Assembly: GCF_023660105.1 (NCBI RefSeq)
Contig: NZ_JAMHGA010000015.1
Span: 1 to 64,000 of the forward strand
Length of the DNA stretch: 64,000 bases
DNA from: Desulfovibrio aminophilus
GTDB lineage: Bacteria > Desulfobacterota > Desulfovibrionia > Desulfovibrionales > Desulfovibrionaceae
Direction of reading: 5' to 3'
Each line of letters begins with the position of its first letter. The first letter of the stretch is position 1. The notes under the pieces were generated by a model. It saw only the letters and a list, made by a program, of their open reading frames with translations. It was not told the DNA's origin and searched no databases. The translations under genes and the position numbers were made by a program. Below, piece after piece: positions 13,864 to 61,867 of this stretch.

Positions 13864-14298
13864 ATGAAACTTTCTGCCAAGTCGCGGTACGCCGTGCGCC
13901 TCATGCTCGACCTGGCCATGCACGTGGGGCGCGGGCCGCAGCGCACCGCCGCCCTTTCCGAGCACACCGGGGTCACGGTGCGCTTCATCGAGCAGATCCT
14001 CAAGCCGCTCAAGAAGTCCGGGCTGGTGGACAGCGTGCGCGGGGCGGCCGGGGGCTATGTCCTGGCGGGCAAGCCCGAGGACGTGACCCTGGCGGCCATC
14101 CTGCGGGTGGTCGAGGGCGACCTGAGCCTGACCCACTGCCGGGCCGCGCCGGAGATCTGCCACCGCAGCCAGGTCTGCAAGGCCCACCAGGCCTGGGGCC
14201 GCGTCTCGCGGGCCCTGGAGGCCGAACTCTCGGCCATCTCCCTGGCCGACCTCATGGAACCCCTGCCCCTGGGCTCGCAGCACGGCTGCGACGTCTGA
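13864..14298 (+). CDS. Rrf2-family transcriptional regulator with three-cysteine Fe-S motif
   Basis: A 144-residue winged-helix regulator. The N-terminus (MKLSAKSRYAVRLMLDLA) and recognition region (FIEQILKPLKKSGLVDSVRGAAGGY) are classical Rrf2/IscR sequence. Cysteines C92, C99 and C105 sit where IscR binds its [2Fe-2S] cluster, so iron-sulfur or redox sensing is likely. It is transcribed divergently from the peptidase/ligase operon across 238 bp and ends at a strong terminator. Because it is not beside isc/suf genes, its target may be the divergent operon or itself; this is inference. Confidence 0.9.
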   Translation: MKLSAKSRYAVRLMLDLAMHVGRGPQRTAALSEHTGVTVRFIEQILKPLKKSGLVDSVRGAAGGYVLAGKPEDVTLAAILRVVEGDLSLTHCRAAPEICHRSQVCKAHQAWGRVSRALEAELSAISLADLMEPLPLGSQHGCDV

Positions 14299-34497: not shown

Positions 34498-36492
34498 ATG
34501 CCTCAGATTCCCGCTAAAGAAGTTGTGAAGGGCGTCCCGTTGGCCGAGCCTCAGGTGATCGAGAAGCACGCGGACATCCTCATGGTCGGCGGCGGCATGG
34601 GCTGCTGCGGCGCCGCGTTCGAGATCTGCCGCTGGGTCGACGCCAAGTACAAGGACCTCTCCGTGATGCTGCTGGACAAGGCCGCCCTCGAGCGTTCCGG
34701 CGCCGTGGCGCAGGGCCTTTCCGCCATCAACACCTACCTGGGCGAGAACGATGCCGACGACTACGTCCGCATGGTCCGCACCGACCTCATGGGCCTGGTC
34801 CGCGAAGACCTGATCTTCGACCTGGGCCGTCACGTGGACGACTCCGTCCACCTGTTCGAGGAGTGGGGCCTTCCCTGCTGGATCAAGAAGGACGGCCACA
34901 ACCTCGACGGCGCCGCCGCCAAGGCCGCCGGTCTGTCCCTGCGCAAGGGCGACGCCCCCGTGCGTTCCGGCCGTTGGCAGATCATGATCAACGGTGAGTC
35001 CTACAAGGTCATCGTGGCCGAGGCCGCGAAGAACGCCCTGGGCGAAGAGCGCTACCTGGAGCGCGTGTTCATCGTGAAGCTGCTTCTCGATGCCAACACC
35101 CCCAACCGCATCGCCGGCGCCGTGGGCTTCTCCACCCGCGAGAACAAAGTCTACGTGTTCACCTGCAACGCCTGCCTCGTGGCCTGCGGCGGCGCGGTCA
35201 ACGTGTACCGCCCCCGTTCCACCGGTGAGGGCATGGGTCGCGCCTGGTACCCGGTGTGGAACGCTGGTTCCACCTACACCATGTGCGCTCAGGTCGGCGC
35301 CGAGATGACCATGATGGAAAACCGCTTCGTGCCCGCCCGCTTCAAGGACGGTTACGGCCCGGTCGGCGCCTGGTTCCTGCTGTTCAAGGCCAAGGCCACG
35401 AACTACAAGGGCGAGGACTACTGCGCCACCAACCGCGCCATGCTGAAGCCCTACGAGGATCGCGGTTACGCCAAGGGTCACGTCATCCCGACCTGCCTGC
35501 GCAACCACATGATGCTCCGCGAGATGCGTGAAGGCCGCGGCCCCATCTTCATGGACACCAAGTCCGCGCTGCTCGCCACCATCAACAACGACTTCAAGAA
35601 CCCCCTCTGGAAGCACCTCGAGTCCGAGGCCTGGGAAGACTTCCTCGACATGTGCGTCGGTCAGGCCAACCTCTGGGCGGCCACCAACTGCGCCCCCGAG
35701 GAGCGCGGCTCCGAGATCATGCCCACCGAGCCCTACCTGCTCGGTTCGCACTCCGGCTGCTGCGGCATCTGGGTCTCCGGTCCGGACGAGGAGTGGGTCC
35801 CCGAGGACTACAAGGTCCGTGCCGAGAACGGCAAGGTCTACAACCGCATGACCACCGTCATGGGTCTGTTCACCTGCGCCGACGGCGTGGGCGCCTCCGG
35901 CCACAAGTTCTCCTCCGGCTCGCACGCCGAGGGTCGTATCGCCGGTAAGGCCATGGTCCGTTGGGTCCTCGACCACAAGGACTTCAAGCCCGCCCTGTCC
36001 GTGAAGGCCGCCGACCTGGCCAAGGAGATCTACCAGCCCTGGTACACCTTCGAGCAGTTCAAGAAGGCCTCCACGGCTCCGGAGATCAACCCGAACTACA
36101 TCACCCCGAAGAACTTCATGATGCGCCTCACCAAGTGCACCGATGAATACGGCGGGGGTTGCTCCACCCTGTACATGACCTCCAAGGCCCTGCTGAACAC
36201 GGGCTTCTGGCTCATGGGCATGATGGAAGAGGATTCCAAGAAGCTGGCCGCCCGCGACCTGCACGAACTCATGCGCTGCTGGGAGCAGTTCCACCGCCTG
36301 TGGACCGTGCGCCTGCACATGCAGCACATCGAGTTCCGCGAAGAGTCCCGTTACCCGGGCTTCTACTACCGCGGCGACTTCATGGGCCTGGACGATTCCA
36401 AGTGGAAGTGCTTCGTGAACTCCAAGTACGATCCCGCCAAGAAGGAACTGAAGATCTTCAAGCGGGCGTTCTGGCAGATCATCCCTGACTAG
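34498..36492 (+). CDS. aprA: Adenylylsulfate reductase, alpha subunit
   Basis: FAD-containing catalytic subunit that reduces APS to sulfite and AMP. The 664 residues match the family length. The FAD-binding loop is ILMVGGGMGCCGAAFEIC near 29-46; AVAQGLSAINTYLGENDADDYVRM, GRWQIMINGESYK and SSGSHAEGRIAGKA are AprA blocks. The ATG at 34498 has AGGGAGGT upstream. Arg is often CGT and Gly often GGT, a sign of very high expression. Ends at a strong terminator, so qmoABCD is transcribed separately or by read-through. Confidence 0.98.
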   Translation: MPQIPAKEVVKGVPLAEPQVIEKHADILMVGGGMGCCGAAFEICRWVDAKYKDLSVMLLDKAALERSGAVAQGLSAINTYLGENDADDYVRMVRTDLMGLVREDLIFDLGRHVDDSVHLFEEWGLPCWIKKDGHNLDGAAAKAAGLSLRKGDAPVRSGRWQIMINGESYKVIVAEAAKNALGEERYLERVFIVKLLLDANTPNRIAGAVGFSTRENKVYVFTCNACLVACGGAVNVYRPRSTGEGMGRAWYPVWNAGSTYTMCAQVGAEMTMMENRFVPARFKDGYGPVGAWFLLFKAKATNYKGEDYCATNRAMLKPYEDRGYAKGHVIPTCLRNHMMLREMREGRGPIFMDTKSALLATINNDFKNPLWKHLESEAWEDFLDMCVGQANLWAATNCAPEERGSEIMPTEPYLLGSHSGCCGIWVSGPDEEWVPEDYKVRAENGKVYNRMTTVMGLFTCADGVGASGHKFSSGSHAEGRIAGKAMVRWVLDHKDFKPALSVKAADLAKEIYQPWYTFEQFKKASTAPEINPNYITPKNFMMRLTKCTDEYGGGCSTLYMTSKALLNTGFWLMGMMEEDSKKLAARDLHELMRCWEQFHRLWTVRLHMQHIEFREESRYPGFYYRGDFMGLDDSKWKCFVNSKYDPAKKELKIFKRAFWQIIPD

Positions 36493-54471: not shown

Positions 54472-54882
54472 TCAGCGGCAGGGACAGTCGGAGAGCAGGC
54501 TCTCGATGGTCATGGAATCCAGGGTGTTCATCATGGCCTGGGCGGCCTCGATCCAGATGCCCCGGGTCATGCACTGTCCGGCGCGGTTGCACTCGCCGCA
54601 CTCGCTGCACGGGGCCAGGCACTCGGTCTTCTCCAGGGCGCGCACGATGTCGCCCACGGTGATCTGGGAGGCGGGGCGGGCCAGGGAATGGCCTCCGCCG
54701 ACGCCCCGGCGGCTCTTGATGAAGCCGCTCTTCTTCAGCTCGTTGATGAGCTTCTCCAGGTACTTTTCCGAAATTCCCTGGCGTTTGGCGATGTCCGAGA
54801 TGGGCACCGGTCCTTCCTCGCCGTGCAGGGCGATGTCCAGGACCATGCGGGTGCCGTAGCGGCTCTTGGTGGTGATGCGCAT
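54472..54882 (-). CDS. rrf2: Rrf2, Fe-S-type regulator of the hmc operon
   Basis: A 136-residue winged-helix regulator, the prototype of the Rrf2 family by position. MRITTKSRYGTRMVLDIAL and KYLEKLINELKKSGFIKSRRGVGGGHSL are the DNA-binding region; cysteines in TECLAPCSECGECNRAGQC are numerous enough to bind an iron-sulfur cluster. In D. vulgaris rrf1 and rrf2 follow hmcF and repress the operon. The ATG at 54882 is preferred to one at 54915 because the shorter protein has the standard family N-terminus, though neither has a strong ribosome site. Confidence 0.92.
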   Translation of the reverse strand: MRITTKSRYGTRMVLDIALHGEEGPVPISDIAKRQGISEKYLEKLINELKKSGFIKSRRGVGGGHSLARPASQITVGDIVRALEKTECLAPCSECGECNRAGQCMTRGIWIEAAQAMMNTLDSMTIESLLSDCPCR

Positions 54883-54892
54883 GGCGCAGATT

Positions 54893-55345
54893 TCATCCGA
54901 GGATGGCGCGGACATGGCTCAGGATGTCTCCCGGTTTCACGGGTTTGGTGAGGAAGGCGACCGCCTCCGGGACGGCGTGGCGGCCGGCGGGCATGCCGCT
55001 GACCACGATGACGGGCGGGATGTTCTTGACCCCGTCCTGGACCAGGCGGTGGTGGAAGCGCGGCCCCCATCCCTTGGGCATGGCGATGTCCAGGGTGATC
55101 AGGTCGGGCTTCTCCGCGCGGAAGACCCGCATGGCCTCTTCGCCGTCGCGGGCCACGCAGGTGGCGTAGCCTTCCTCCTCGAAGAGGGCCTTGAAAAAGA
55201 GCACGATGTTCGGGTCGTCGTCGATGATCAGGATCTTCTTCCGACGCCGACCGGCGGCCGGGGAGCAACCCTCCCGGCCGCCGCCCCCGGATTGGGGGGC
55301 GGCGGCGGAGGGATCGTTCCTGGGTGTGTTGTCCCTGCTACTCAT
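54893..55345 (-). CDS. rrf1: Rrf1, receiver-only response regulator
   Basis: A 150-residue single-domain response regulator without an output domain. After a Gly/Pro-rich N-terminal 35 residues it reads [11 protein letters not shown], the phosphoacceptor D in [11 protein letters not shown] near residue 83, a conserved S in VVSGMPAG and K in FLTKPVKPG. The ATG at 55345 overlaps the hmcF stop by eight bases. Matches rrf1 in D. vulgaris by position and type. Confidence 0.9.
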
Positions 55346-56732
55346 CTTCCTTGGGCTTCAGGTGGTCCGGGACGATGGCCATCTTGATCAGGAGGGGCTT
55401 GAGGAAGGACCAGCGGATGCCGATCCTGTACTCTTCCTCCAGGTCGCGGATGGCGTCCCAGCAGTTGTGACACGGGGCGATGACCAGCTTGGCCCCCGTG
55501 GCCAGGATCTGGTCGCGCTTTTTGCGCAGAGCCACGTTGCGCTGCGGTCGGAACTTGCCGACGCCGTTGAAGCCGCCGCCACCGCCGCAGCAGTAGTTGT
55601 GCTCCTTGTTCGGCGTCATTTCGATGAAATAACCCGGTTCCACCAGATAGCTCATGATCTCGCGGGTGACAAGCGCGAGGCCGTGGTTGCGCACGTAGTT
55701 GCAGGAGTCCTGCAGGGTGACGGGCTCCTTGATGCGCTTGGCCGGGTCGATCTTGATCTTGCCCGTGCGCAGGGCCTCGGCCACCCACTCCACATAGTGG
55801 ATGTAGGGCGCGGGCGGCAGCCCGTCGGGGCGTCCGACCCAGTACGGACCCTCGATGACCGTGCCGCGGTGGGCGTGGCCGCACTCCGTGCCGATGACGC
55901 GCTTGGGCTTGAGCCGCTCGATGGCCGAGTAGACGTTCTGCACCTGCTGCTTGCAGCCTTCCCAGTCGCCCGCGAACATGGTCAGGGAGGTCTGCTCCCA
56001 GCCCTCGGACGGCACGGTCCAGTTCTCGCCCGCCAAGTGGAAGAGGATAGCGGCCTCGGCCAGGTCCTCGGGATAGTGCTTGGGCTCGCGGGCGTTGCAG
56101 GTGTACATGATGTCCGCGCCTTCCTTGTCCACGGGGATCTCCAGGCCCGGCCATTCCTCGCCGTTCTCCTCGGCCATCCACTCGCAGGTCTCCACCCAAT
56201 CCTCGCTGGTCACGTCCATCTGGGCGTGGAAGATGCGGTGCATGCCGGAGCCGATCTTCAGCTCCCACGGCACGAAGCCCTGGGAGAAGAGCAGGCCGCG
56301 CAGGTAGCTGAACATGACGCCCATGTCGATGCCGTAGGGGCAGTACATGCCGCAGCGGTTGCAGCAGGTGCACTTGGACCAGGCGGTCTCCATGGCCATC
56401 TGCATGAACGCGTTGTCCACGTCGCCGTCGCGGCGCACGATCTCGCCCAGGGTGGACTGGATCTTGTAGGCCGGGACCTGCTTGGGGTCGCGGTTGTTCA
56501 CGGTGTAGAGGAAGCAGGAGTCGGCGCACAGGCCGCAGTGGGCGCACATGTCGAGCCAGGTGCGGGTGCGCGACTTGAGGGTGTTCTTCAGGCTGGCGCG
56601 CAGCTTTTCCGTGTCCACGTCGAGGTGGTTCATCTCCTCGTAGTAGACGCGGCCGCGGGTGTCGGCCAGCAGCGCGTCCAGCTGTTCCTTGGTGGTCACG
56701 GGCTGCTTGTTGCAGATCTTGCCTTCGGGCAT
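55338..56732 (-). CDS. hmcF: Hmc complex iron-sulfur subunit HmcF (HdrD/CCG-type)
   Basis: A 464-residue cytoplasmic iron-sulfur subunit of the Hmc complex, homologous to heterodisulfide reductase. Two [4Fe-4S] binding sets are [11 protein letters not shown] near 62 and [14 protein letters not shown] near 121. Two cysteine-rich CCG domains end the protein ([35 protein letters not shown]). It would receive electrons from HmcE at the inner face of the membrane. AAGGAGAA lies before the ATG. Last structural gene before rrf1. Confidence 0.95.
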
Positions 56733-56764: not shown

Positions 56765-57442
56765 TTACCAGGGCATGTTCCGGCCCTTGCGGCCGCCGCG
56801 CTTGATCGCGAAGTCCATGCCGATCTGGGCGCGGCTCAGGAAGAAGCCGACGACGTGGTAGAGCTTGGTGAAGGGGATGGCCACCAGCAGGAGCTCGGCC
56901 GTGAGGATGTGGGCCAGGAGCCAGAACTGGTAGTCGCCCCAGTGCATGACCGCCACGAAGCCGGTGCACAGCGGCGCGGCGGCGATGAGCAGGAGCAGCC
57001 AGTCGTACCAGGTGGTCACGATGCGCACCTCGGGCAGGCTGAAGCGGCGCATGGCGATGCCCACGATGGAGACCAGGGCCAGGGCGGTGAGCACGTCGGC
57101 CAGTCCCTGGGGCAGGGAGGGCCAGGCGATGCCGAAGCGCTGCTGGAGCAGCACGGCGTGTCCGGCCAGGAACAGCGGCACGAGCACCGCGCCGATGTGG
57201 AAGCCGAAGAAGGCCAGGGTGAAGCCCGGCTTGGTGCGCCAGCTGTGCGTGCCGAAGGGCAGCAGCCAGTAGAGGATCGAGCGGGCCGCGCCCTTGGCCC
57301 CGTCGGCGGGGAAGGAGGAGTAGGCCACGCGGTCGAGGGGCTGGCTCAGGCCCTTGACGTACCACACGACGCGGTAGGCCAGGCCGCCCAGGAACACGGC
57401 GAACACGACCCAGAGGAGGGGTCCGGTGATGAACTCGTACAT
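56765..57442 (-). CDS. hmcE: Hmc complex membrane subunit HmcE (NarI-like)
   Basis: A 225-residue integral protein with five predicted helices, e.g. LLWVVFAVFLGGLAYRVVW, PGFTLAFFGFHIGAVLVPLFLAGHAVL and FWLLAHILTAELLLVAIPFTKLYHVVGFFL. The paired histidines in FHIGAV, GHAVLL, AHILTAE and LYHVVG suit two b-type haems, as in NarI. It would connect the periplasmic cytochrome side to HmcF. AAGGAGAAC precedes the ATG. Confidence 0.93.
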   Translation of the reverse strand: MYEFITGPLLWVVFAVFLGGLAYRVVWYVKGLSQPLDRVAYSSFPADGAKGAARSILYWLLPFGTHSWRTKPGFTLAFFGFHIGAVLVPLFLAGHAVLLQQRFGIAWPSLPQGLADVLTALALVSIVGIAMRRFSLPEVRIVTTWYDWLLLLIAAAPLCTGFVAVMHWGDYQFWLLAHILTAELLLVAIPFTKLYHVVGFFLSRAQIGMDFAIKRGGRKGRNMPW

Positions 57443-57621: not shown

Positions 57622-58785
57622 TTAGTGGGCGTCCTTGAAGTCGGGATGCTCGTAGAAGATGGGCATCCGGGTGACGATGAAGCGGAAGGCCAGGATGCCG
57701 ACCACCACCACGAACAGCGACACGCCGATCTCGCCCCAGCTGGGGAAGTAGCGCTGGGCCGAGGGCAGCTGCCAGTTGAAGGCCACCAGGGAGACGTTGA
57801 AGCGGTTCAGCACGATGCCCAGCACCGTGAGGCCGGAAGTCCACTGGATGAGCTTCAGGTTCCGCTCGCGCGAGCCGATGGCGTAGAGCAGGCAGGGCAG
57901 GACCACGAAGCCCAGGACCTCGAAGAGGTACCAGGCGCCCCAGCCCGTGAGCAGGTACTTCCAGTTGTCGTCCGCGCCCAGGGCGATGAGCTTGATGCCC
58001 AGGTAGGCGGCCAGGACCACCGAGGCGGCCCGGGCGAAGCCCAGGACCACGCCGTCGTGCTGGGCCAGGTAGGTCGCGTCCATCTTGTGGTGGAAGGCCT
58101 TGTGCGAGAGCGTGCCCTCGAAGATGACCATGGACAGGCCCACGGCGATGGCCGAGACGAAGAACTGGATCGGCAGGTAGGTCGAGTACCAGAGCGGGTG
58201 CAGCTTGGAGGGCGCGATGAGGTAGAGCGCGCCCAGCGAGGACTGGTGCAGGGTGGAGAGCACCACGCCGAAGATGGTCAGGAGCAGCGTGAGCTTGTGC
58301 ACCAGGCCGCGCAATTTCTTGAGCCCCAGCCATTCCAGCGCCGCCACCGAGTACTCGATGGCCAGGACGCTCAGGTAGAGGAACACGCACAGGCCCACTT
58401 CATAGAGCAGGGAGGTGGTGCCGGGCTGGAGGAAGATGGGGTAGACCAGCCGCCAGGGACGGCCCACGTCGTAGTGCAGGGCGAAGACCACCAGGGCGTA
58501 GCCCAGGAAGGCCGTGAGGATGGCCGGGCGCACCGCCGAGTGGTATTTCTTGATGCCGAAGATGTAGGCCGCGGCCGAGGTGGTGAAGCCTCCGGCGGCC
58601 AGGGCCACTCCGCAGAGCAGGTCGAAGCCGATCCAGATGCCCCACGGGTTGTTGTCGTCCAGGTTGGTGATCGCGCCCATGCCCTTGGTGAAGCGCAGCA
58701 CGGTGAGCACCAGGCCGACGGCCACCACGATCCCCGCGAAGATGTTGAACGGGGTGAACAGCGATTTCTTGGTTTCGGCGGTCAT
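57622..58785 (-). CDS. hmcC: Hmc complex membrane subunit HmcC (NrfD/PsrC-like)
   Basis: A 387-residue quinone-site-type membrane protein with ten helices. NPWGIWIGFDLLCGVALAAGG and STLHQSSLGALYLIAPSKLHPLWYS are family blocks of NrfD/HybB proteins. The ATG starts immediately after the hmcB stop. It probably anchors HmcA/HmcB and exchanges electrons with the quinone pool or passes them inward. Confidence 0.95.
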   Translation of the reverse strand: MTAETKKSLFTPFNIFAGIVVAVGLVLTVLRFTKGMGAITNLDDNNPWGIWIGFDLLCGVALAAGGFTTSAAAYIFGIKKYHSAVRPAILTAFLGYALVVFALHYDVGRPWRLVYPIFLQPGTTSLLYEVGLCVFLYLSVLAIEYSVAALEWLGLKKLRGLVHKLTLLLTIFGVVLSTLHQSSLGALYLIAPSKLHPLWYSTYLPIQFFVSAIAVGLSMVIFEGTLSHKAFHHKMDATYLAQHDGVVLGFARAASVVLAAYLGIKLIALGADDNWKYLLTGWGAWYLFEVLGFVVLPCLLYAIGSRERNLKLIQWTSGLTVLGIVLNRFNVSLVAFNWQLPSAQRYFPSWGEIGVSLFVVVVGILAFRFIVTRMPIFYEHPDFKDAH

Positions 58786-59844
58786 CTACGCGCCCTCCTC
58801 CTCTTTGGCGGCGGCGGCCGCTTCCTCGAGCGCCTTCTTGACCTCGCGCTCGATGCTGCCGGCCTTGTCCTTCTCGGCCTGCTCCTTGAACTTGGCGAGC
58901 TTGGCGTCGTTCTCGGCCTGGTTGCCAGCGACGGCGGCCTTCACGGCGGCCGCGCGCTCCTCGTCGGCCGTCTTCTCGTTGCGCTTGGAAATGGCCCAGA
59001 TGCCGCCGAGCAGGGCGGGCCAGAGGGCCGCCACCATGGGCACCACGGCCAGGGCGCCGGAGGTCAGCTCCGGGGCGCTGGTCACGCCGAGATCCTCGCG
59101 CATGCCGATCTCCTTGAAGGGCGCGCCGGAGAGGGTGAGCCAGTTCGTGCCGCCCATCTCGCGCTCGCCGTAGACGTGGTCCACGTAGCGGCCGGGGTTG
59201 GCCTCGATGCGGGCGTGGGCGATCTTCAGGATGTCCTTGCGGCGGCCGTAGACCAGGGCCTCCTTGGGGCAGGCCCCCACGCAGCCGGGCACGGACAGCT
59301 CGCCGGCCGTGATCTGCGGGTGGCACATGGTGCACTTCATGACCCGGGGGGTCAGCGGCTCGTCGTACTCGTAGGTCGGCACGTTGAACGGGCAGGCCAT
59401 GATGCAGTAGCGGCAGCCCACGCAGACCGAGGCGTCGTAGGTCACCGAGCCGTCGGGGTTCTTCTTGAAGGCGCGCACGAAGCAGGCCGAGGCGCAGGCC
59501 GGCTCCTGGCAGTGGTTGCACTGGATCTTGCGGAACACCGGGGCCGCGGCTCCGGCGGGCATGTACTTGTTGACCACGGTGTGGGCCTTGGCCGAGGTGC
59601 GGCGCTCGGTGTCGAGCACTGTCAGGTCGGTGAAGGGCTTGGCCGGGGCCGGGAGCTTGTTGACCTTGTTGCAGGCCTCCTCGCACTTGCGGCAGCCGAT
59701 GCAGCGGGTGGCGTCGAAGAGCACGGCCTTGGCGTCGGGATAGCCTTCGAAGTGCGCATTGGAGGCGGCATGCGCCGGGGTCTTTCCGAGGGCCAGGCCC
59801 GCCCCGGCCGCCCCCATCAGGGTCAGGAACTTTCTGCGTCTCAT
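58786..59844 (-). CDS. hmcB: Hmc complex iron-sulfur subunit HmcB
   Basis: A 352-residue ferredoxin-like subunit. A Tat-type signal [20 protein letters not shown] puts it on the periplasmic side. Four [4Fe-4S] binding sets follow: [49 protein letters not shown] and [25 protein letters not shown] membrane helix near 265-283 ([20 protein letters not shown]) anchors the C-terminus, and an Ala/Glu/Lys coil ends the protein. Typical of the DMSO-reductase-B type subunit, here tied to HmcA. Confidence 0.95.
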
Positions 59845-59876: not shown

Positions 59877-61559
59877 CTACTTTTTCCGGGGCTTGTGGCA
59901 GCCGTTGGCGCAGTCGGTGGCCACCGGCTTCTCCAGCTTCATCGCCGTGTGGCAGCCCATGCACTGGCCGTGGTAGGCGGCCTTCAGGCCGGGACGGCCG
60001 GGCTCGTTCGGGGAGAACGGCTTGGCATGGCAGCTGGCGCAGCTGGGCGGGGTCTTGGAGACCGGGCTGTTGTGGTGGCAGCCCTGACAGACCGTGCCCA
60101 TGTCGCCGTGGAAGTAGCCCGCGAGCTTGTCGTCCTTCATGTTCTTGAGCAGCGTCATGACGATCTTGCGGTGCGGCAGTTCGCTCGGCTCGTACTCGTC
60201 GGCCAGGACCTTGATCGTGACCTTCTCCGGGATGTCCTCCGTGGCGAAGACCTGGGCCTCCATCCTGCGGGCGGCCAGATAGGGCTCGGCCAGCGGCTTC
60301 TCGTCGGCGGCCTTCATGCCGGACAGGGCCGCGGGATCCAGGGCGGGCAGGCCCTGGACGGGCTCGGCGTGGCACTTGCGGCAGCTCTCGTTAGAGGCCT
60401 TCTTGCCCCGGTCGGCGGAGGTGTGACAGCCCGCGCACTTGGGATCGGCCTGCCTGGTCTGGTGGCAACCCACGCAGGAGCGGGTCGAGGCCAGGCCGTG
60501 CATGGCCGTCTCCAGGGTCACGAAGTTGCTGTCCTTGGTGCCCTGGACCGTGTGGCACTTGGTGCAGGAGTCCATGGACTTGTGGTGGCAGGCGCGGCAG
60601 GTGTCGGTGGCCTGCTCGTGGGCCTTGTGGTCGAAGGGCGCCGGGCGCATGGCGTAGATCCTCGCGCCGGAGGCGGCCTGGGCCTTGTCCACGTTCACCG
60701 CGATCACGGCGGCGTCGGGCTGACCGCGCTTCATGCGGGGCAGCTCGCCGCCGATCTTGTCCAGGACCTTCTTGTCGTTGGCGCGGATGGACTTCTGGCC
60801 CGTTGCGCCGTGGCAGCCCGCGCAGAGCACCGGGCCGGTGGCCTGCTTCTTCTGCTCCATGCCCAGGTGGCAGGTCACGCAGTCGTTGTGCGCGGCCTGG
60901 CGGAAGCTCTCGACCTCCACGCCCAGGGCGGCGTCCTTGACCGGCTTGTCCAGGTGGCAGTAGCGGCAGGTGCCTTCCTTGCCCTTGGCCCAGACGGTCT
61001 TCTTGGCGGCCTTGTCGTATTCGTGGTGGCAGCGGCCGCAGTTGTCCTTGTCACCGGAGGGCGAGGCGATGTCCTTGGACTCGGCGTGGCGGTAGTGCAG
61101 GACGTTGGTGAAGCCCATGTCCAGCTGCTTGCCCGCCGCGGCCTTGGGATTGTGGCAGGAGCGGCACTGGCCGTCCTGGGGTCCGGCCTTCTGGCCCTTG
61201 GCCGCGGTCTGGGCGTGACAACCGATGCAGTTGTCGTGGTAGACCGACTTCATGGCCTGGGCGTCGCCGTCGGCCACGCGCATGAACTTGAGGACGAGCT
61301 TGCCGTTCTCCTGCTTGTGGCAGGCCGCGCAGTCCTTGCCCGCCTTCTTCAGGGCCTCGGTGTGCTTGTCGTGGGCGAACACGACGGGCGGCAGCTCAAG
61401 CTTGCCGTAGGCCGTCATGTCGTCGATCAGGACGATGTCCGCCTGTTCGGCGGCCGGGGCCTTGGGATCGCCGGAGCCGCTGGCCTCGATGCAGTACACC
61501 GACACGGCGGCGAACACGCACAGGACACCAGCCCATCTCAGCAGTGGTCTTGCCTTCAT
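59877..61559 (-). CDS. hmcA: High-molecular-weight cytochrome c HmcA (16 haems)
   Basis: A 560-residue periplasmic multihaem cytochrome c that accepts electrons from hydrogenase via cytochrome c3 and passes them to the Hmc membrane complex. I count fifteen CXXCH haem sites and a sixteenth at the extreme C-terminus in the form CANGCH (three residues between the cysteines). A signal peptide ends near residue 27 (VSVYCIEA). The ATG at 61559 is chosen with GAGGAC nine bases upstream over an upstream in-frame GTG. First gene of the operon hmcABCDEF-rrf1-rrf2. Confidence 0.95.
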   Translation of the reverse strand: MKARPLLRWAGVLCVFAAVSVYCIEASGSGDPKAPAAEQADIVLIDDMTAYGKLELPPVVFAHDKHTEALKKAGKDCAACHKQENGKLVLKFMRVADGDAQAMKSVYHDNCIGCHAQTAAKGQKAGPQDGQCRSCHNPKAAAGKQLDMGFTNVLHYRHAESKDIASPSGDKDNCGRCHHEYDKAAKKTVWAKGKEGTCRYCHLDKPVKDAALGVEVESFRQAAHNDCVTCHLGMEQKKQATGPVLCAGCHGATGQKSIRANDKKVLDKIGGELPRMKRGQPDAAVIAVNVDKAQAASGARIYAMRPAPFDHKAHEQATDTCRACHHKSMDSCTKCHTVQGTKDSNFVTLETAMHGLASTRSCVGCHQTRQADPKCAGCHTSADRGKKASNESCRKCHAEPVQGLPALDPAALSGMKAADEKPLAEPYLAARRMEAQVFATEDIPEKVTIKVLADEYEPSELPHRKIVMTLLKNMKDDKLAGYFHGDMGTVCQGCHHNSPVSKTPPSCASCHAKPFSPNEPGRPGLKAAYHGQCMGCHTAMKLEKPVATDCANGCHKPRKK

Positions 61560-61733
61560 AACATCCAGTCCTCGCACCTCTTTGATTTCATGGACAGAGA
61601 GCCTTCAGACTCCTCCGAACGCCCGGGGCGCGGCGCTCGCCCGCGCCTCCCGCCCGGTCCGTCCGGCGCGGCCGGTCTCCCGTCCGGCCCGCTGGAAAGA
61701 ACTCCGTGAGAAAAAAGCCGTCTCTCTCGGGTC

Positions 61734-61758
61734 AATTCATACTCCTAGAGTATGAATT
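61734..61758. promoter_or_regulatory. 25-bp perfect palindrome in the hmc leader
   Basis: Two 11-bp arms AATTCATACTC and GAGTATGAATT flank a CTA spacer. It lies 175 bases before the hmcA start, just downstream of the candidate promoter, as expected for a repressor operator. Rrf2, encoded at the end of the operon, is the obvious candidate binder; Rrf2-family sites are usually such AT-edged dyads. Confidence 0.7.
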
Positions 61759-61783
61759 AATTTCCTACGAGGTCACTATGAAA

Positions 61784-61801
61784 TTGTGAACCTTTCGTCA
61801 A
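61784..61801 (-). promoter_or_regulatory. Rex-like element over the hmc -35 box
   Basis: On the minus strand TTGACGAAAGGTTCACAA contains a -35-like TTGACG and ends in a perfect Rex half-site TTCACAA. It shares its layout with the sat element at 33331-33348. Confidence 0.4.
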
Positions 61802-61867
61802 GCGGGTTCCCACCAACTCGGTAGGATTTTTTTCACGAGCGGGAAAATGAACGGGAAATGCGCGTGG

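Follow-up and report, generated by a model that had tools for sequence, protein, structure and literature searches.

A conserved tandem dyad array in the hmc promoter of Desulfovibrio aminophilus as a putative operator for the predicted regulator Rrf2

Background

The Rrf2 protein of the hmc operon is the namesake of a large protein family whose members regulate in response to Fe-S and redox state, and solved structures among its relatives include those of IscR, CymR and NsrR. Type 1 sites of IscR are 25-bp dyads of 11-3-11 form (11-bp arms, 3-bp spacer) with a GACT half-site core. According to the portions available of the report on RsrR, 11-3-11 inverted repeats are characteristic of full-length Rrf2 sites, and in the rsrR region of Streptomyces venezuelae two sites lie one base apart (PMC5015018); the class 1 sites of RsrR have this form, are associated with likely autoregulation and have targets in signal transduction and NAD(P)H metabolism. 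RisR of Myxococcus xanthus is described, in the sections available, as an Rrf2-family repressor with a GAC-N7-GTC core, AT-rich flanks and isc and suf targets, acting at promoters with predicted -35 and -10 boxes (PMC9973013). The hmc operon of D. vulgaris Hildenborough has the same rrf1 and rrf2 genes as the operon described here (Keon et al. 1997, as cited in the parts available of PMC9338935 and PMC10924467), and an rrf1-rrf2 deletion of that strain has been published. No DNA site for the founding Rrf2 clade was found among the matches listed in the open-licence literature searched, which leaves out most subscription papers, and none is given in the available portions of PMC9338935, PMC5015018, PMC9973013, PMC5701242, PMC4215793 or PMC10924467.

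The locus described here lies in a 64-kb stretch of D. aminophilus DNA, which is referred to as the window. The leader of its hmc operon contains three dyads (A, B and C). The hmc dyads share the 25-bp 11-3-11 form of the IscR type 1 sites but differ in the half-site core. Dyad C is an exact 11-3-11 repeat, dyads B and C are also one base apart, and the consensus of 85 hmcA leaders (TACC-N5-GGTA) conforms to a symmetric xAC-N7-GTx core with AT-rich flanks. The resemblance to the RsrR class 1 sites is one of geometry, extending to likely autoregulation, while the targets are unlike hmc (PMC5015018, in part). RisR is alike in its predicted promoter boxes and AT-rich flanks, whereas the hmc array has a TAC-N7-GTA core, is tandem and has hmc as its target (PMC9973013, in part). 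Sites of this type have been described before; one belonging to the founding Rrf2 clade appears to be new within the literature searched, part of it available as excerpts. A conserved, promoter-linked tandem operator would provide a defined DNA target on which binding, cluster dependence and autoregulation are directly testable and, if the reading is true, would point to a means of restraining expression of the 16-heme Hmc conduit.

Methods

Of 297 genomes of the order, 140 gave a match to HmcA at E ≤ 1e-100. Sequences upstream of hmcA were collected from these genomes and from a search of named genomes, and the resulting 144 leaders were reduced to 87 non-redundant clusters; L039 and L040 (no hmcA by tblastn) were discarded, as were loci offering fewer than 200 bp upstream of hmcA. 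De novo motif runs were conducted in palindromic mode at a width of 25 with 200 starts. One model was built from 85 hmcA leaders outside the window's genus; a second, held-out model was built from 66 leaders belonging to the family of that genus, the genus itself being excluded. Array layout was counted in the 55 leaders (54 cluster representatives and G148) whose best site reached 16 bits. The linkage table covers 61 of the 69 genomes searched for rrf2, the seven without an hmcA match and G225, in which the hmc contig ends at hmcF, having been left out. An rrf2 gene was labelled by hand as linked when it lay within about 15 kb of hmc on either strand.

Results and discussion

The hmc operon and its Rrf2

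All hmc genes of the window are on the minus strand. hmcA, encoding the hexadecaheme cytochrome (59877-61559; NF045713, 674 bits, cut-off 400), hmcB (58786-59844; NF045715, 545 bits, cut-off 420), hmcC (57622-58785; NF045714, 694 bits, cut-off 550), hmcE (56765-57442; NF045716, 361 bits, cut-off 275) and hmcF (55338-56732; NF045711, 938 bits, cut-off 750) all exceed their NCBIfam cut-offs. They are followed on the same strand by rrf1 (54893-55345), with a receiver domain (PF00072) and an NF045717 score of 139 bits, below the cut-off of 160, and by rrf2 (54472-54882), predicted to encode an Fe-S regulator. The earlier placement of rrf2 as the last gene of the hmc operon was thereby borne out. 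The ATG of hmcA is at 61559, and its entry in the open reading frame list begins at an upstream GTG. The rrf1 gene encodes a stand-alone receiver, its reading frame sharing 8 bases with the end of hmcF; Pfam profiles gave no DNA-binding domain in Rrf1, and Rrf2 is the sole protein with such a domain among the seven operon proteins tested.

Rrf2 belongs to the Rrf2 superfamily, exceeding the cut-offs of both PF02082 (147 bits, cut-off 30) and TIGR00738 (138 bits, cut-off 73.3). It retains cysteines equivalent to the IscR ligands Cys92, Cys98 and Cys104, positions at which cysteine is found in 65, 67 and 69, respectively, of the 69 rows labelled linked, and Glu43 of the IscR recognition helix is present in the window's Rrf2 and in nearly all of these rows. 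Given the conserved ligands, it is plausible that the proposed repression by Rrf2 would be governed by its Fe-S state. The protein was rejected as an IscR equivalog, scoring 118 bits with TIGR02010 (cut-off 207.55) and having Arg at position 107 in place of the ligand His107; the six commonest residues at this position cover 68 of the 69 linked rows, and His is absent from them. CymR, NsrR and RirA equivalogs were rejected likewise (98, 72 and 72 bits against NCBIfam cut-offs of 195, 182 and 193). A third, distant Rrf2-family gene of the genome, its product 31% identical, lies in the window at 13864-14268 on the plus strand.

Dyads of the hmcA leader

The 308-bp hmcA leader (61560-61867, minus strand) is flanked by hmcA and an upstream ferredoxin-type gene. 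Its strongest site, dyad C (61734-61758, minus strand), reads AATTCATACTC-CTA-GAGTATGAATT and is a perfect inverted repeat with 11-bp arms and a 3-bp spacer, exactly as the sequence-only reading had described it. One base away is dyad B (ATTTCATAGTGACCTCGTAGGAAAT; 61760-61784, minus strand), an imperfect 25-bp dyad. The -35-like box TTGACG (61796-61801, minus strand) begins 17 bp before dyad B, and dyad A (AAATCCTACCGAGTTGGTGGGAACC; 61805-61829, minus strand), a weaker candidate, lies just upstream of this box.

Dyad C is unusual for the local composition of its leader, an arm of at least 11 bp having arisen in 1 of 1000 dinucleotide shuffles of the 308 bp. Across the window long perfect hairpins are not rare: seven others with arms of at least 11 and spacers of at most 8 were found, all of them GC-richer or terminator-like. 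At up to 3 mismatches dyad C is single-copy in its own genome (3.54 Mb, 45 contigs). A degenerate form of the pattern, allowing up to 2 mismatches, gave 5 sites in the genome against 4 for a reversed-pattern control; since dyads C and B account for two of the five, no further targets of a wider regulon can be claimed.

Conservation of the array

The de novo motif of the 85 leaders outside the window's genus was ATT.C[AC]TACC-N5-GGTA[TG]G.AAT, with a log-likelihood of 454.6 against 84.8-110.8 in six shuffled sets. All three dyads match it. Scored over the 64-kb window, dyad C ranked first (28.5 bits), dyad B second (20.6 bits) and dyad A fourth (15.3 bits), below an unrelated 16.5-bit match at 36476. 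With this model, which was trained on most of the leaders concerned, sites of at least 16 bits were found in 54 of the 87 non-redundant leaders and in 2 of 4350 shuffles. By the same model, and so partly on its own training leaders, 112 sites fell in 55 kb of leaders and 8 in the 1.1 Mb of sequence flanking them at 110 loci; two of those eight are in promoters of rrf2 itself.

Under the held-out model dyads C, B and A scored 17.2, 14.5 and 13.6 bits, the next position in the leader scoring -2.2, and 17.2 bits was reached by none of 5000 shuffles of the hmcA leader. Among 1809 control segments, none matched the score of the window's own genome (G000) or of G267. Outside the family none of the 1809 was as high for G006, G009, G029, G067, G070 and L034, and one was as high for each of G014, G024 and G075. 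The match was weak in G010, G015 and G039 (6, 18 and 27 controls as high). The model detected no motif in the leaders of G002, G004, G013, G043, L035, L036 and L037.

Dyad B is also present in the congeners G148 and G267, and both have counterparts of dyad A. In an alignment of the three species the TTGACG box is identical and the arms of dyads B and C show hardly any change, unlike the variable centre of C, a contrast that rests on G267, G148 being close to the window throughout; the last ~50 bases before hmcA are conserved too. Conservation of the dyad in the hmc leaders of relatives had been named beforehand as a test of the operator, and the dyad recurs in them. Across the 87 non-redundant leaders 108 sites reached 15 bits; one of these is a perfect dyad and the mean is 6.3 of 11 complementary pairs, which rules out perfect symmetry as the key feature. 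Because the related sites are imperfect, what is conserved would be half-sites for a protein and not RNA pairing.

Layout is also shared. Adjacent dyads are spaced by 24-26 bp in 69 of the 88 pairs that the 55 leaders contain, with three dyads per cluster in 23 leaders, two in 22 and one in 10. In 40 of the 55, 17-18 bp separate the start of a TTGAC box from the first dyad; four more have the box within the first dyad, 17 bp ahead of the second one, and it lies 42 bp before the first dyad in two and 5 bp before it in one, the rest having no TTGAC within the stretch scanned. Taken with the usual distance between -35 and -10 boxes, this spacing would place a dyad over the -10. The window fits the same layout, with cTTGACG, dyad B over the inferred -10 and dyad C beside B, so that dyad C would lie just downstream of the -10/+1 region. 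A position just downstream of the likely hmc promoter had been claimed for dyad C; the cTTGACG box agrees with it, although a generic sigma-70 scan of the leader called no promoter there. The array is very likely an operator, as yet putative, of the hmc promoter. The original operator reading is retained in this form, but its unit is no longer one perfect dyad: it is an array of two or three dyads, embedded in the predicted promoter, in which perfect symmetry is incidental.

Association with rrf2 genes

A motif scoring 16 bits or more was accompanied by an hmc-linked rrf2 in 36 of the 61 genomes; 6 had the linked rrf2 only, 3 the motif only and 16 neither (Fisher p = 2e-7, counting genomes as independent). 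The association is much weaker by genus than by genome: grouped by genus and linkage, the corresponding counts were 13, 5, 2 and 9 (p = 0.008). Three genomes with a linked rrf2 clearly have no 16-bit site (G123, G185, G232), and the other three (G106, G053, G193) reach 12.8-15.5 bits. In genus g7, hmc is present in the five genomes searched, with neither a linked rrf2 nor such a site. In g5, g15 and g31 (G217) rrf2 is directly upstream of hmcA and its own promoter carries a dyad, scoring 18.5 and 19.3, 16.7, and 21.9 bits, respectively; a second rrf2-like gene further upstream in g5 and g15 has no such site. Genomes searched had one to five Rrf2-family genes at E ≤ 1e-12 and the Rrf2 tree was resolved only in part, with good support for 36 of its 89 inner branches, so the term linked does not imply orthology of these genes.

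The leader shared by L081 and L033 (G123, genus g17) contains a variant dyad, AAATCAACCTCCCAGAGGATGATTT, with 10 of 11 pairs. It is situated between divergently transcribed rrf2 and hmcA, beside a divergent Rrf2, and co-evolved specificity is possible.

The predicted regulator and its alternatives

On these comparisons the hmc-linked Rrf2 is probably the regulator of the array. In the mechanism proposed, dimers of Rrf2, the product of the operon's final gene, would fill dyads B and C side by side, and perhaps dyad A; with B bound over the inferred -10 and C over the first transcribed bases, RNA polymerase would be kept off, and change or loss of the predicted Fe-S cluster would relieve repression. 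As rrf2 lies inside the hmc operon, such repression would constitute a negative feedback loop. An autoregulatory Rrf2 operator had been suggested from the dyad in the first place. Its conservation, its Rrf2-family geometry and its tracking of hmc-linked rrf2 support that suggestion in part; it is qualified by the sites that paralogs carry too and keeps the standing of a prediction.

The array might instead be an Rrf2-family operator read by another paralog, tmc-linked or unlinked, a reading we consider unlikely. The number of family members per genome would allow it, and G085, G087 and G213 have strong hmc sites with no linked rrf2. Recognition-helix residues are nearly identical between linked Rrf2s and the tmc-linked Rrf2, and the hmc motif reaches 14 bits in 11 of 21 tmc leaders. 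By hand count, a site of at least 16 bits lies within 400 bp before 4 of 40 unlinked paralogs (L184, L188, L189, L205); the promoters of the other 36, however, are without the motif. Against this reading, too, the motif goes together with hmc-linked rrf2 across genomes and in three genera precedes the rrf2 next to hmcA, and the tmc leaders of the window's own genus differ, with 11.7 and 10.9 bits in G000, best sites of 15.0 and 15.8 bits in the congeners and pairs ~30 bp apart.

Control of hmc through these sites by a dimeric regulator of a different family appears very unlikely. The sites are tied to Rrf2 by comparative evidence, but their 25-bp 11-3-11 geometry and one-base separation match the Rrf2-family sites in the available part of PMC5015018, their TAC-N7-GTA core resembles the RisR core in that of PMC9973013, and no other operon protein tested has a DNA-binding domain. 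A role for dyad C in the hmc leader transcript as a hairpin of RNA, whether attenuator, stabiliser or terminator, is hardly credible: its 25-mer would fold at -10.6 kcal/mol, a stability reached by 0 of 200 shuffles, and a 77-nt leader piece containing it at -25.5 kcal/mol (1 of 200), but neighbouring and related sites pair poorly, dyad B over the predicted -10 having no fold (-0.6 kcal/mol) and the related sites keeping half-site sequence and not pairing, and a scan found no terminator-like site.

Parallels in the tmc operon

Outside the window, at G000:C37 12708-16962 (L271 5709-9963), a tmcDCBA operon has an Rrf2-family gene of its own as the last gene, the product of which is 48% identical to the window's Rrf2. 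This tmcDCBA-rrf2 layout parallels that of hmc and rrf2, and its leader has the weak related dyads, ~30 bp apart, described above. In the 21 tmc loci as a set, the 14-bit threshold was reached in 11 leaders against 9 of 4200 shuffles. The tmc leaders of other genera include L317, L302, L316 and L315; some of the matches are tandem dyads at 25 bp, and the leaders examined in g8, g7 and g4 stayed below the threshold. One GACT-type half-site marks the tmc site of the window's genus, with pairs ~30 bp apart, and the hmc sites have TACY half-sites 25-26 bp apart. We tentatively suggest, as one possibility, that in sulfate reducers the two trans-membrane electron conduits, Hmc and Tmc, are run by Rrf2 sensors that are paralogs, with each sensor encoded alongside its complex and acting on related but distinct tandem operators; if true, such a pair would let the cell use its redox or Fe-S state to choose the Hmc or the Tmc conduit.

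Nitrate strongly induced an Rrf2-family gene of D. desulfuricans 27774 together with the receiver-domain gene beside it (Ddes_0843/0844), according to the portions available of PMC5701242. Nitrate is a possible signal for Rrf2 and receiver-domain gene pairs of this kind.
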